A stretch of 64,000 nucleotides of DNA, taken from NCBI RefSeq assembly GCF_000209165.1, contig NC_009047.1:682001-746000 (forward strand), in the 5' to 3' direction. Origin of the DNA: Scheffersomyces stipitis CBS 6054. Lineage: Eukaryota; Ascomycota; Pichiomycetes; Serinales; Debaryomycetaceae. Below the pieces are notes generated by a model. That model saw only the letters and a program-made list of their open reading frames with translations, had not been told where the DNA came from and searched no databases. Positions 19,469-26,600 of this stretch are shown here, in pieces; within the stretch, counting starts at the first letter, position 1, and each line of letters opens with the position of its first letter. The position numbers were made by a program, and so were the translations under genes.

Positions 19469-20127
19469 TTATTGGTATCTCTTGAATCTATTTCTGCGGT
19501 TTGCAAACTTAAAATTGGTAAGTAATTCTGACAAGTCAGGTGGTACAAAAATGAAACATACCCATATACGAACTTCTGATGTAGACATATTACATCTGAC
19601 TGCAATGGATTTTCTATGAGCTCGGCTTGGTGAAGGATCGAGGGAAAATTCTTTTTCGAGAATAGCTCGTATCTCTGGACTGTGTATCTTGCGTCTTCTC
19701 TTTCGGACCAAGGCTTTGTCGCCTAATGCTACTTTTGATGATAAGTTTGTAGAACAAGTAATTGAGATCATGACGGACCTGAGATGAAACTCTTGAGGCT
19801 GCGCATCATGGTCTAGAAACGTCCTCTTCTTCTCAGACGCCTTTTCAACGGCATTGTCGAACAAGTTTTGAATACTATACTTCAAGACCGCCAGCAGGTC
19901 CAAGTATCTGCAAAGCTAATAAAACAGAAGGTTAGTAATAGTCTAGTAATTGCATTCTAATTACATACCTGAAGCATTCTCCATCTCGAAGCATCTAGGT
20001 TCATCTGCTTGTTCGCACTGATAACTTCACGAGCCTCATTATTCCACGACCAACAACTGCCAGTTAGTTCTTCAAGTTCTGACGCTTTTTCTACGAGGCA
20101 ATCGAGATTGTCACGATGGGAACTCAT
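19469..20127 (-). CDS. MTLa1: Mating-type protein a1, homeodomain (3 exons)
   Basis: Spliced model: exons 20127-19969, 19915-19562 and 19507-19469, giving 183 aa. Introns carry GTATGT donors; the first has a perfect TACTAAC branch site and a TTATTAG acceptor. The C-terminal 60 residues (about 124-183) form a homeodomain: the basic arm RKRRRKIHSPEI, a three-residue-extended middle typical of TALE-like mating factors, and recognition helix SEVRIW joined by splicing to FANRRNRFKR. The W-F-x-N-R-R signature is complete only after splicing. In yeasts a1 pairs with alpha2 to repress haploid genes. Residues 60-61 are CTG codons, read here as serine. Neighbours are MTLa2 (same strand, 165 nt upstream) and a convergent mitochondrial-protein gene. 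An array of four TGAAACA elements lies 117-159 nt before its ATG. Confidence 0.93.
19508..19561 (-). other. MTLa1 intron 2 (54 nt, in phase, stop-free)
   Basis: Donor GTATGT directly after the TGG codon of the homeodomain, acceptor TTTTAAG before TTT. The branch site is probably the TTACTTAC stretch near the acceptor. Its length is a multiple of three and it has no stop, so unspliced RNA would code for an 18-residue insertion in the recognition helix. Confidence 0.85.
19916..19968 (-). other. MTLa1 intron 1 (53 nt)
   Basis: Donor GTATGT, canonical branch site TACTAAC, acceptor TTATTAG. A later AG (TTTGCAG) would give an early stop, so the chosen acceptor is the only productive one nearby. 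Confidence 0.9.
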
Positions 20128-20243
20128 TCTCGGTTGCTAAAGAATGAAGTCACTACATAGATATCTGAATGGAGTATAAGTTTATTAAATTAAATCTTGT
20201 AGGGTAAAGAAACAAGTAACTCTACAAAAATGCGCACAAAATA

Positions 20244-20286
20244 TGTTTCAATATGTGTTTCAACTCGTGTTTCAACATGTGTTTCA
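20244..20286 (-). promoter_or_regulatory. Four-copy pheromone-response-type element array, 12-nt period
   Basis: TGTTTCA occurs at 20244-20250, 20256-20262, 20268-20274 and 20280-20286, so each start is exactly 12 nt after the last. On the MTLa1 coding strand this reads TGAAACA, the Ste12-binding pheromone response element of S. cerevisiae. The array lies 117-159 nt upstream of the MTLa1 ATG and begins 6 nt after the MTLa2 stop. The unit is roughly NNTGTGTTTCAA, so it can also be described as a 12-bp minisatellite. The site function is inference. Confidence 0.7.
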
Positions 20287-20292
20287 GATCAA

Positions 20293-20973
20293 TCACTTGT
20301 ACATGTCCTCAGTGAAAATTCCTAAACTGCAGTTAACTGAACTAGTCTTGATCTTAAAGGCACCTGTTTGACTTCTACCTTTGTTTCTTTCTCTTTTGAC
20401 CTTAGTAACCCGAAATTTGTCTTTAAATGAATCAGCCAGCTGTTTTGGTGCACTATCCCTTTTAGATTTAGTATAATAGCTACTGCGACACAACTGACGA
20501 TACTCTGAATGCTTAAAAGCTGGTGGGGCACTTCTGATTGTTCCAGTAGATTTCTCGTACCAAGAGGCCTCTACCAAGGAAAGATACTGGAAGTACTCCT
20601 GGAATTGTCTGGGGCTCTTCTTCCAAATCTATACATGTTAGCGAATATATTTCAAAAATGTGTATAAAATGTAACTTACCAGGGAAACCGTTTTTGCAAG
20701 GTCCCGGAAGGTCTTGAGATCGGATGGCATCAAGTTCGTGATGATATTTCTGGCAACTATGAAGCTGTTCCTACTTCTGAAGGTGTCATTTCTGGAACGA
20801 CTCTTCTTAAGCAAAGAGCTGGGATTCTCGTGAGTTAAGAAATCTGAGTCTCTTTTGCTAGAATTGGTGGAAACCAACGGAAAACTGCTAGCACAAGCCA
20901 ATTGCTTGACAGAGGAGCCAGTCGAAGTACCGCGATTGACCTTTGGGAACGAAAATGAAAAGCTGGAACTCAT
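20293..20973 (-). CDS. MTLa2: Mating-type protein a2, HMG-box (2 exons)
   Basis: Spliced model: exons 20973-20680 and 20628-20293, giving 209 aa. I start at the first ATG (MSSSFSFSFPKVN); the longer frame begins at GTG. The intron has donor GTAAGT, branch GCTAAC and acceptor TATAG. The HMG box lies at about residues 66-125: RSRNSFIVARNII is helix 1, DLKTFRDLAKTV leads into helix 2, and after the splice IWKKSPRQFQEYFQYLSLVE gives the conserved tryptophan and helix 3. The C-terminal third is basic. In Candida-clade yeasts a2 is the activator of a-specific genes, a role S. cerevisiae has lost. The gene is divergent from PAP1, sharing a 157-nt promoter. The codon before the splice is CTG, taken as serine. 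HMG-box a2 is the best match; the alpha box alternative is excluded by the separate alpha1 gene. Confidence 0.9.
20629..20679 (-). other. MTLa2 intron (51 nt) within the HMG box
   Basis: GTAAGT donor, GCTAAC branch point and ATGTATAG acceptor. Although its length is a multiple of three, the branch site itself contains an in-frame TAA, so retention truncates the protein. Confidence 0.88.
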
Positions 20974-21118: not shown

Positions 21119-22801
<1,683 letters not shown>

Positions 22802-22852: not shown

Positions 22853-23431
22853 CTATTTCAGTAAATATACATCCTTGACAGTATTTCTCCTTGAAGTTCC
22901 CGATGAAATTAACCATTGCCCGTTTTTGACGATGTTAGTTTCTGGAATCCTTCTCGTAAAACCTAAATCTAGATTTAGTCTCGTTGATAACCATTCAACA
23001 AACGTTTTGTCTTGTTCTTCTGCCGTTTCATTGTATTCCTGTGCATACCTATTCCAGACCTTCTTGTTTGGATAGTGATCCCATATTTGTCCAAGACTTC
23101 TAGAAAGTAGTCTTTGTGACTTTGGGTTGCGGATTGACTTGGTATAGAAAGAACGGAAGGCTATAAACCCGTTGATTTTCTTAAACTTACTTATTAGTCT
23201 TCTCGTCTTTTCTTGTGTATTGTCTCTGTTCAAAGATTTGAAAGTAGTTAAAATCATATCAAGCTCATCGGTTGTGGCAGGAATTTTGGGTAGTGAAGTG
23301 TGGGTAAAAACTTGATGATGTGGCGTATTGATGATCCCACTTGTATCCAGGGTTGTCAGAGGTTGCGCAACCCTAAATCGGGAAGTAAAGCCTTCGCCAG
23401 CTTTGTTCTTTATGGACGACTTTTTGCTCAT
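22853..23431 (-). CDS. MTLalpha1: Mating-type protein alpha1, alpha-box
   Basis: 192-aa protein. The ATG at 23431 (MSKKSSIKNKAGEG) is chosen because the longer frame starts at TTG and adds a hydrophobic stretch foreign to the family. The alpha box covers about residues 82-135: KINGFIAFRSFYTKS, then QRLLSRSLGQIWDHYPNKK and VWNRYAQEYNE, matching the MATalpha1 pattern of N-x-F-x-x-F-R-x-F-Y, L-S-x-x-L-x-x-x-W and N-K-x-x-W. Alpha1 activates alpha-specific genes with Mcm1. The gene lies between PAP1 and PIK1, on the same strand as PIK1, only a few kilobases from the a1 and a2 genes. A TATATA run near 23529 could be its TATA box. No intron is needed. Having alpha1 in the same locus as a1 and a2 is the key oddity. 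Confidence 0.92.
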   Translation of the reverse strand: MSKKSSIKNKAGEGFTSRFRVAQPLTTLDTSGIINTPHHQVFTHTSLPKIPATTDELDMILTTFKSLNRDNTQEKTRRLISKFKKINGFIAFRSFYTKSIRNPKSQRLLSRSLGQIWDHYPNKKVWNRYAQEYNETAEEQDKTFVEWLSTRLNLDLGFTRRIPETNIVKNGQWLISSGTSRRNTVKDVYLLK

Positions 23432-23684: not shown

Positions 23685-26600
23685 TTAACTGTAGATCCCT
23701 TGAGTTATCATCTGGAATTGATCATATAGTCTGGTGTACATGCTTCCATAACTTCTCCCAATAAGAGTGTTTTCGACGAACGCTTCCGATTCTTCTTCTG
23801 ACAATTGGAGCTGTAATCTCTGTTCTAACAAAACACTGGTGTTCTCTCCATTCTTGAAACAAGGGAGTGTAGAATCCTTTTGCATCAATTCGACCAAATT
23901 CACAATCTGGCGATGCTCCTTTCTTAAGGCATTGAAACACTTCTTGCACATATCAACAAACAGTAGATAAGGTGCTGACTCATTTCCACCTAGTAAATTT
24001 ACATATTCACTTGTTAATTTAAAAGGAGCTGCCTCAAAACCGACACTTCCCGGAGAATTGGAAAGTAGAAAACCAAAATCAATATGGATGATGTGTCCAT
24101 CGTTATCCAACATGATGTTTCCGTTATGTCTGTCTTTAATTTGCAATACATAACATATGATGGAATATGATGCTAGACTTCTGGCAAAGTTGTTTTGTGC
24201 TCTCTTGTACTTTTGGGAGGTTGGTGATCCAAACATATTTTCAAAGTAGTCCTGTAACGTGAAGATTCTTCCTTTCGTGTTCTCGCCATCGTTAATGGAA
24301 ATTTCGGTCATGGATTTCTTAATAGAGTGTATGGACATGGCATTATTGATTGTCTCTACTAATCCGGTGTTTGCACTTGTAATGAGAATTTTCATTCTCT
24401 TGGTCCAGGCATCCTTGACGCCTTGTCTCTTCCAAATAGAAGTAATCAATGAAATCAATTGACAAGCAAACGCCTCCTGGGGCAAATCGTCTCCATTCTT
24501 CGCAATGACTGAGCACAATTCCCAGTTATCAAGATGACCATAAACACTTGACTTTCTAATTCTTTCCTTCTTCGTATTCCAGTCTTCTCCAAGCTTGAAA
24601 TCATTTTCAAGCTTCCTTTCTCCGGCATCTGGCAAATCTCCCTTTAATAGATTCAAACGCTCGTAATTTATAGTGTCAAATTGATCCTGTAATGATATCA
24701 TAGATTCAACAATTCGACTTTTGATGGCACTCGATTGTTCGGAGGACGCCTGCCCTGAACTTTCTAACTGCTGAAGCATCACTGACGCGATTCTCATCTG
24801 ATCAGCCAAAAGCTTAGTAGTATCTGCATTAGTATTTGATGGAAAAGACGATAATTTCTTGTCCTGCTCAGTCTTAGGTGACCTCTCAATGTCCGATTGA
24901 ATAACAAAACTTCTATCACTTTTTACTGTCAACATTGGCAATTCCCCCAAGTCAGTCTCCTCTTCTTCAACGTAAACGAGACTGTCCTCAGTATTTTCGG
25001 TACTCGCTCGAACACTAACAGGCGACTTTAATCCTGATTGAGAACCTTCAATCATTTCATTCAACAAGTCGTGGCTAGACTTTGAAGTTTCCTCGTGGTT
25101 GTTCCTATTGGCAATAATCTTTTGATTTGCATCCGTAAAAGGATTGAAATCGAACTCGTCACTCAAATATTCAACAAGAAGCAAGAATGGCACTCTTTCT
25201 GCTGAATTCAATACACAGGCTTCGTTGATACTCAATTTCAATATCTTATGATATCTTTTGTTCTTGCTACTGGTAATGGGCAAAAGTTGTGGGATATCGA
25301 TCTCCGATGGTAGCAAGGTCTCATTGATAATTGAGAGCTCTGCCCTCAATGCGGACAATCTAGCTTCTTTGGGAACCAGTGACAACCTCAATGAAATGTT
25401 TTGTAGGGCCATAATAAATTCTGTCTCCTTTTTGGCGTAATTGATTTGCAACACCTTGAGCAATTGGTTGTATGACGGGGTTTGAACCGTGCTATGAAGT
25501 GAAAGGTTCCTCTTAAGACCTTGTTCTATAGACAGATGAGGGAAGTTCAACGAAGACTCTGATTCTGCAGGAGAAAGATATGGTTGAGAATCTGCTTCAT
25601 GAACTCGGGAAAGGTCGGGCAATGAATGCGACACGTATGCATCTGTGCCTTCATACTTGGTACTAAGAGAATCCAAGGTCAACTGTCTTGCTCTGTTTTT
25701 TCTCTTTGGTGTGATAACCGTGTTTATCTTCAAGTTCTCTTCTACTTCAATGTAACTTCTGTGTCGGTTTTCACTCCTCATACCAAGTTTAGACATTTCA
25801 TTTTCGATATGCGTGCTTGATCTAAACTCCAGCTCTTCGTCACTGGTATAGTACTCGGACTCATCGGACAGTATAGTCAAGCTGTTCTTCTTGGGCTGCA
25901 TTCTAGGCACTGAAGCTGAACGTTGGTGCCCATGAGAAAGTTTACCTCCGACTTTCCGAGCTTCGTCGTCTGACATAGTTTCCGTAGCAGTTTCTGATGA
26001 AAGTCGTTTGTTTTTCATGGTCAAGTTTTTAGTTAGAGTTTTCTGAAAATTTGCTAGCTTGAACACGAATGACTTTTGTTGTTTCGCTTGAGACCTCACT
26101 AAAGAAGACGCATAATCGTTGAATCGAGGCGCTCCAATGGCTGAAGCAATTACTCCACATAATATGATAGCTGGTTGAAAGTTCTCCCTGAATTCGGGTT
26201 TCTTCATCAATTCTTCATTATTGAACAATATGTTCTGCAATTTGTTTATGAAATTCCGTACGACCTGAAAAGAATATGACTCCGGATCATTCCGTAACTC
26301 AAAGACACAAGATTGCAAATTCCAAAATACAACCATACTGTAGTGTGGGTATTTGGAGCAATATTCAAGAAGAAACTCTTCAAGGGCCATCGAATCAGTT
26401 TCAAATGCAACTAGAAGCTGGACAAACTGCGGTATGTAGAATTCTAATTCATCGTAGCTATAACTGCGCAACTTCTGGACAAGTGTATGCTGAATACCGA
26501 TGCTCTCTCGGTATCCTCTTAGATTATCAATGCAATCTAGCGCAGTGAAGTCTGAAGAACGAATTTTCTCAAGAAGCAATTCATTCTCTTTTAGTGACAT
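23685..26600 (-). CDS. PIK1: Phosphatidylinositol 4-kinase, MTL-linked
   Basis: 971-aa protein. The C-terminal lipid-kinase domain shows the catalytic loop DRHNGNIM (823-830) and the DFG metal-binding motif within HIDFGFLLSNSPG (838-850). The N-terminus has the helical LKU-type domain of PI4-kinase III beta, and the middle is long, Ser-rich and likely phosphorylated, including RSASVPR and HSLPDL segments. Pik1 makes PI4P at the Golgi (and in the nucleus) for secretion. Yeast Pik1 is somewhat longer (about 1066 aa). In Candida the PIK gene lies inside the mating-type locus and has diverged a and alpha alleles. Here a single copy lies downstream of OBP on the same strand, with a 312-nt promoter that contains a perfect AGGTGA-N6-TCACCT dyad. 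Confidence 0.95.
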   Translation of the reverse strand: MSLKENELLLEKIRSSDFTALDCIDNLRGYRESIGIQHTLVQKLRSYSYDELEFYIPQFVQLLVAFETDSMALEEFLLEYCSKYPHYSMVVFWNLQSCVFELRNDPESYSFQVVRNFINKLQNILFNNEELMKKPEFRENFQPAIILCGVIASAIGAPRFNDYASSLVRSQAKQQKSFVFKLANFQKTLTKNLTMKNKRLSSETATETMSDDEARKVGGKLSHGHQRSASVPRMQPKKNSLTILSDESEYYTSDEELEFRSSTHIENEMSKLGMRSENRHRSYIEVEENLKINTVITPKRKNRARQLTLDSLSTKYEGTDAYVSHSLPDLSRVHEADSQPYLSPAESESSLNFPHLSIEQGLKRNLSLHSTVQTPSYNQLLKVLQINYAKKETEFIMALQNISLRLSLVPKEARLSALRAELSIINETLLPSEIDIPQLLPITSSKNKRYHKILKLSINEACVLNSAERVPFLLLVEYLSDEFDFNPFTDANQKIIANRNNHEETSKSSHDLLNEMIEGSQSGLKSPVSVRASTENTEDSLVYVEEEETDLGELPMLTVKSDRSFVIQSDIERSPKTEQDKKLSSFPSNTNADTTKLLADQMRIASVMLQQLESSGQASSEQSSAIKSRIVESMISLQDQFDTINYERLNLLKGDLPDAGERKLENDFKLGEDWNTKKERIRKSSVYGHLDNWELCSVIAKNGDDLPQEAFACQLISLITSIWKRQGVKDAWTKRMKILITSANTGLVETINNAMSIHSIKKSMTEISINDGENTKGRIFTLQDYFENMFGSPTSQKYKRAQNNFARSLASYSIICYVLQIKDRHNGNIMLDNDGHIIHIDFGFLLSNSPGSVGFEAAPFKLTSEYVNLLGGNESAPYLLFVDMCKKCFNALRKEHRQIVNLVELMQKDSTLPCFKNGENTSVLLEQRLQLQLSEEESEAFVENTLIGRSYGSMYTRLYDQFQMITQGIYS

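Follow-up and report, generated by a model that had tools for sequence, protein, structure and literature searches.

The DNA analysed here, a stretch of 64,000 nucleotides from Scheffersomyces stipitis CBS 6054 (hereafter the window), carries the genes MTLa1, MTLa2 and MTLalpha1 together with a PAP1-type poly(A) polymerase gene (Table 1). The gene order continues from PAP1 and MTLalpha1 to PIK1 and an oxysterol-binding gene, a set that we take to be the usual MTL neighbourhood of CTG-clade yeasts. The spliced a1 prediction matches the Homeodomain family (PF00046, 57.6 bits), and its sole match in the protein search was a 142-aa S. stipitis protein with 99% identity over 78% of the query. The a1 protein on record has 142 aa compared with 183 aa for the spliced prediction, and the gene model on record may be short of one exon; both predicted introns have the GTATGT sequence, the second without a TACTAAC box. 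The predicted MTLa2 protein gave no Pfam match, and the gene was named on the assumption that its position and HMG-type sequence identify it.

Table 1. Features of the S. stipitis MTL region (window coordinates) and perfect TGAAACA heptamers within 600 nt upstream of pheromone-pathway genes (positions relative to the ATG).
Feature	Position	Strand	Remarks
MTLa1	19469..20127	-	Homeodomain protein, 183 aa with two predicted introns (19916-19968, 19508-19561) removed
a2-a1 interval	20128..20292	-	165 nt; presumably the promoter of a1 and the 3' flank of a2
TGAAACA array	20244..20286	-	Four heptamers, head-to-tail, period 12 (word count and Tandem Repeats Finder)
PRE copy 4	20244..20250	-	Nearest a1, ends at -117
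PRE copy 3	20256..20262	-	
PRE copy 2	20268..20274	-	
PRE copy 1	20280..20286	-	Farthest from a1, -159 to -153
MTLa2	20293..20973	-	209 aa, one predicted intron (20629-20679), stop codon 20293-20295
PAP1-type poly(A) polymerase	21131..22801	+	Divergent from a2
MTLalpha1	22853..23431	-	MATalpha HMG box (PF04769, 49.5 bits)
STE2			TGAAACA at -249
STE3			TGAAACA at -147
STE12			TGAAACA at -548
FIG1			TGAAACA at -116 and -92
KAR4			TGAAACA at -222 and -161
SST2 (RGS plus DEP)			TGAAACA at -158 and -85
GPA1			TGAAACA at -249

The array between MTLa2 and MTLa1 reads TGTTTCA on the plus strand, with starts at 20244, 20256, 20268 and 20280. On the minus strand, which is the coding strand of both a2 and a1, its units are TGAAACACATGT, TGAAACACGAGT and TGAAACACATAT followed by a last TGAAACA, and Tandem Repeats Finder reports 3.6 copies with a period of 12. 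The word count thus confirms the four heptamers in exact 12-nt register on which the original prediction was built, as well as their distance of 117-159 nt from the a1 ATG (at 20127; array at -159 to -117). If a PRE cluster is taken as at least two consensus TGAAACA upstream of a gene, a1 has one, with four perfect copies. The gap from the a2 stop codon to the array is 6 nt, and a coding origin of the repeat was rejected, since the a2 frame ends at this stop, ahead of the array. The interval also has the word CATTCT on the minus strand (20141-20146), 19 nt before the a1 ATG; CATTCT is a Tec1-type motif.

At the other genes of the locus, TGAAACA is absent from the 800 nt upstream of a2, from the 800 nt upstream of PAP1 and from the intergenic stretch before alpha1, while two single copies lie inside the PIK1 coding region (23855-23861 and 23933-23939), 424 and 502 nt upstream of alpha1. 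It had been claimed that no similar cluster precedes a2, alpha1 or an alpha2-like ORF. For a2 and alpha1 this stands, but the alpha2-like ORF could not be confirmed: the passages of PMC6692504 on which we draw give a1, a2 and alpha1 as the only mating-type genes of S. stipitis. Three places in the genome matched the TALE homeobox family (PF05920), all of them outside the window. This search overlooked the a1 homeodomain, which is split by an intron, and for the absence of alpha2 we therefore rely on that paper.

Outside the array TGAAACA has a density of 0.30 per kb in the window (both strands), and the whole window has 23 copies where 20 are expected, i.e. there is no enrichment. With independent placement, 1.5e-8 four-site period-12 arrays are expected per genome (5e-7 for any period between 8 and 40), in keeping with the earlier statement that a chance origin is very unlikely barring unit duplication. 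Tandem duplication is the fairer null. The window has 55 Tandem Repeats Finder rows at a score of at least 30, and exactly one heptamer in it occurs four times at a constant spacing of 8-30 nt, namely that of the array. Moreover, in the whole genome (15,441,179 bases, 8 contigs) three TGAAACA at 12-nt steps were found only at the array. Four-fold heptamers with constant spacing were present at four places, the array included, in 338,420 genome bases (the 64,000 of the window, 72,880 selected by gene family and 201,540 selected for TGAAACA pairs, partly overlapping, with two duplicates of the array left out). Two of the other places are inside long ORFs (L021 and L025), and one (L044) falls in an open-ended ORF of 90 aa that is not certain to be a gene. 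Within the array unit the variable columns are confined to the 5-nt spacer (3 of 12 columns, chance 0.045; 4 variable columns and chance 0.010 when the bases after the fourth copy are counted). This favours selection on the core weakly, because the core was what drew attention to the array.

For C. albicans, Sahni et al. 2009 (PMC2745568, in the passages used here) considered PRE-like words to be probably spurious and not the main element, and described the OPRE, GTGAGGGGA, instead. Because another element was reported there, the role of TGAAACA in S. stipitis needed testing. Within 600 nt upstream, TGAAACA is present before all seven pheromone-pathway genes STE2, STE3, STE12, FIG1, SST2, GPA1 and KAR4 and before two of 29 other genes (Fisher p 4e-6). 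The KAR4 locus came from the fetch that was itself selected for TGAAACA and has 433 nt of upstream sequence only; with KAR4 left out the count is 6/6 (p 1.7e-5). The 29 other promoters are those of the 24 ORFs in the window that reach 150 aa, alpha1 excepted (with alpha1 included, a site precedes three of 25 window ORFs), and those of GPA2, of a further RGS gene and of three homeobox genes. The labels GPA1 versus GPA2 and KAR4 versus IME4 are provisional assignments from sequence features, and KAR4 here denotes a KAR4-like MT-A70 gene. Among nine extra genes from the RGS and G-alpha searches, two of which have less than 600 nt of upstream sequence, one has a site. The heptamer occurs before pheromone genes in both orientations, and it alone among the 2798 heptamers present is common to all seven promoters; each of these genes has one or two sites within 600 nt compared with the four of the array. 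The genome has one gene of the Ste12 family (STE, PF02200; 196 bits). These data indicate that in a CTG-clade yeast pheromone genes are marked by a PRE of the S. cerevisiae type, and they support the reading of TGAAACA as a Ste12 target mark that the original prediction had adopted (7/7 versus 2/29 and 1/9 promoters). Two candidate a-factor (CAAX) genes with an upstream TGAAACA in the fetched loci (a search that did not include the window) looked like chance ORFs and were rejected; the alpha-factor family (PF05436) gave no match in the genome, and the control genomes were equally without match.

The OPRE resembles the element considered here in that it is a CTG-clade cis element for targets of Cph1, the Ste12 orthologue (PMC2745568, in part). 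The exact OPRE is absent within 800 nt (433 for KAR4) of the seven S. stipitis pheromone genes, and the best matches have 1-4 mismatches in these genes (1 for STE12 and FIG1) and 2 in each of 5 controls. It does not clearly split pheromone genes from controls and was set aside. Before a1 the best match within 800 nt has three mismatches, and the OPRE word with one mismatch (GTGTGGGGA) is present at -161 of alpha1. In S. cerevisiae MATalpha1 is partly STE12-dependent.

Genome-wide there are 85 TGAAACA pairs within 30 nt in direct orientation, and the two opposed orientations have 7 and 11; the reversed-word control gives 36, 5 and 5. A look-up of pheromone genes through such pairs (40 regions fetched, 10 neighbouring ORFs scanned) was mostly uninformative: one of the ten ORFs was pheromone-related (MT-A70, KAR4-like) and in 8 of 20 regions examined the pair was inside a long ORF, and the test by named pheromone genes given above was used instead. 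Several pairs are repeated. The sequence TGAAACAAATGTGAAACA, two head-to-tail PREs with a 4-nt gap, is found in nine places on contigs C1, C3, C4 and C7, in three cases paired exactly 4,732 bases apart (e.g. C3:1441742/C3:1446474 and C7:276079/C7:280811), a spacing like that of retrotransposon LTRs; it is possibly an element of the Ty1 kind that responds to Ste12. A second 32-nt TGAAACA pair is found in thirteen places on all eight contigs. Finally, C1:3485667-3489669 has eight TGAAACA-pair copies in an apparent long tandem-repeat region, which is possibly an adhesin-like gene.

With respect to register, the optimum for head-to-tail Ste12 sites in S. cerevisiae is 5 bp between TGAAAC cores (PMC12187013, in part), and 4 nt between TGAAACA heptamers according to excerpts of a preprint (PMC12712937); therefore both mean a period of 11. 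The array has 5 nt between heptamers and a period of 12, and so lacks the head-to-tail di-motif with a 4-nt gap. Among the spacings reported in passages of PMC12187013, which may or may not include period 12, those other than 5 and 15 gave little or no output, section 13 of PMC12712937 does not name a 5-nt gap among the further spacings that are common, and we infer that the array steps of 24 and 36 misfit 10-bp increments. Cooperative binding of Ste12 at this register, as was proposed originally, is thus doubtful, the period in S. cerevisiae being 11 and here 12. No perfect period-12 TGAAACA pair is present in any control promoter, and the three other period-12 pairs in the genome (two in ORFs, one near COX4) adjoin no recognisable pheromone gene. 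Three accounts are conceivable: the S. stipitis Ste12 may differ in its preference, neighbouring sites may act unpaired so that their number is what counts, or the array may be neutral. Upstream of GPA1 (L056:649-677), at roughly 770-795 nt from the ATG, lie two perfect TGAAACA at a distance of 22 nt, which leaves a gap of 15 nt between the heptamers. This place had been a candidate tandem repeat, which was rejected since it really consists of the two perfect sites with a non-matching middle. The pair is in helical phase with a 5-nt rather than a 4-nt gap, a single case that hints at a difference in the S. stipitis Ste12, whereas the nine places of the repeated element, with their heptamers 4 nt apart, and the location of the three other period-12 pairs speak against such a difference. 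Three PREs in the FUS1 layout led to Ste12 recruitment and nucleosome eviction in S. cerevisiae while two in that position did not, although induction was still slow (PMC12187013, in part), and four PREs might therefore make a strong element.

From the sequence we consider it probable that the array is a Ste12-bound UAS of four perfect PREs that makes a1 pheromone-inducible. When the pheromone MAP-kinase pathway is active, the Ste12 orthologue would bind the cluster before the a1 ATG and raise a1 transcription, such that a1 would join STE2, STE3, FIG1, SST2, GPA1 and KAR4 as a target of the pathway. The likely purpose would be timing: a1 would reach high levels in mating cells and zygotes alone, and there its homeodomain protein could help to end mating and to start meiosis. 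Because every haploid carries a1, a2 and alpha1 and there are no switching repeats, it is inducibility that would limit a1 to these cells. Against this counts that the array, for which control specifically of a1 had been suggested, is upstream of a1 but lies in the 3' flank of a2 as well and may have a role in the a2 3'UTR.

That the array is a neutral minisatellite, in which a 12-nt unit containing TGAAACA was duplicated by slippage and the sites have no role, we regard as unlikely. Short tandem repeats are common, as the number of rows in the window testifies, unit duplication by itself yields a constant spacing, and the period does not match the known Ste12 register. Against this account, the array is the only four-fold heptamer tandem of the window, no other heptamer is as enriched in S. 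stipitis pheromone promoters as that of the array, the array lies where the promoter of a mating-type gene is presumed to be, and its spacers, but not its four identical cores, have diverged.

The location next to a2 raises the further alternative that the signal is one of RNA, namely four UGAAACA in the a2 transcript (or the a1 leader) bound by an RNA-binding protein that sets the fate of a2 mRNA. For both genes the array is in sense orientation, with 6 nt between it and the a2 stop, and its four UGAAAC are the sole UNAAAC matches on the sense strand in 20128-20330. Repeated UNAAAC is reminiscent of the signal for Mmi1 elimination in fission yeast, and, provided that the stretch is transcribed, the four sense-strand UGAAAC would be the several UNAAAC words of such a DSR-type signal; to our knowledge elimination of the Mmi1 type occurs in fission yeast only. 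An RNA signal leaves unexplained the enrichment of the heptamer before pheromone genes in both orientations, and we hold this alternative to be highly improbable. It is likewise improbable that the sites bind Ste12 mainly for starvation or filamentation input, of a Ste12-Tec1-like kind, and not for pheromone. The Tec1-type word at -19 of a1 would fit, as would O. polymorpha, in which STE12 is downstream of nitrogen starvation via RME1 (PMC5720833, in part), but CATTCT is a short word, and the TGAAACA element is defined here by a control set of pheromone genes.

As an element the proposed pheromone-inducible UAS before a1 has parallels elsewhere. In S. pombe mat1-Pm is controlled by the HMG factor Ste11, whose DNA site differs from the PRE, and this control is not homologous to Ste12-PRE control. 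What mat1-Pm shares with the proposed a1 is that a mating-type gene is raised by pheromone, so that meiosis is triggered after mating (according to passages of a modelling paper, PMC5760542). The PRE clusters of S. cerevisiae (FUS1, PRM1, AGA1 and FIG1) are like the array in that TGAAACA is present upstream in several copies and in head-to-tail pairs (excerpts of PMC12187013 and PMC12712937). Unlike these, the array keeps all of its four perfect copies in a single register, whose period is 12 rather than 11, and its target is a gene for a mating-type regulator whereas theirs are mating effectors. In homothallic O. polymorpha the Efg1-Rme1-Ste12 route places Ste12 upstream of MAT identity, and STE12 is needed for mating and switching; there the effect of Ste12 is on mating and on the inversion by which the MAT region switches, and the passages of that paper used here show no PRE array before a MAT gene (PMC5720833). 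Among the matches listed from the open-licence literature, no report describes Ste12 or pheromone elements for the MTL of S. stipitis.

S. stipitis has a single MAT locus in which a1, a2 and alpha1 are contiguous, is a primary homothallic and lacks switching repeats (Krassowski et al. 2019, PMC6692504; for general background see also PMC8394074 and PMC5748462, all in part). How mating and sporulation are controlled in such cells is described in passages of PMC6692504 as not understood, and epigenetic or other regulation is favoured there, such that one gene set is expressed per haploid cell. C. lusitaniae completes meiosis without alpha2 (PMC3009590, in part), and a role of a1 would therefore be compatible with the loss of alpha2. 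We suggest tentatively, and with more doubt than confidence, that a pheromone-Ste12-a1 relay sets the order of mating followed by meiosis in haploids that have neither alpha2 nor switching: a1 would be low until the signal arrives, and a burst through the array would then end mating and start meiosis in the zygote together with some partner that is not alpha2.

The array is an ordinary type of element with an unexpected target, i.e. a mating-type gene. The use of the PRE in a CTG-clade yeast, set against the OPRE of C. albicans, bears on the timing at which the Ste12/Cph1 network was rewired. With a 43-bp element before a1, the question of when a cell with both mating-type gene sets mates and when it sporulates becomes testable by one cis mutation in a laboratory yeast and, if the proposed relay is true, the array would offer a first account of primary homothallism in budding yeasts at the level of cis regulation.
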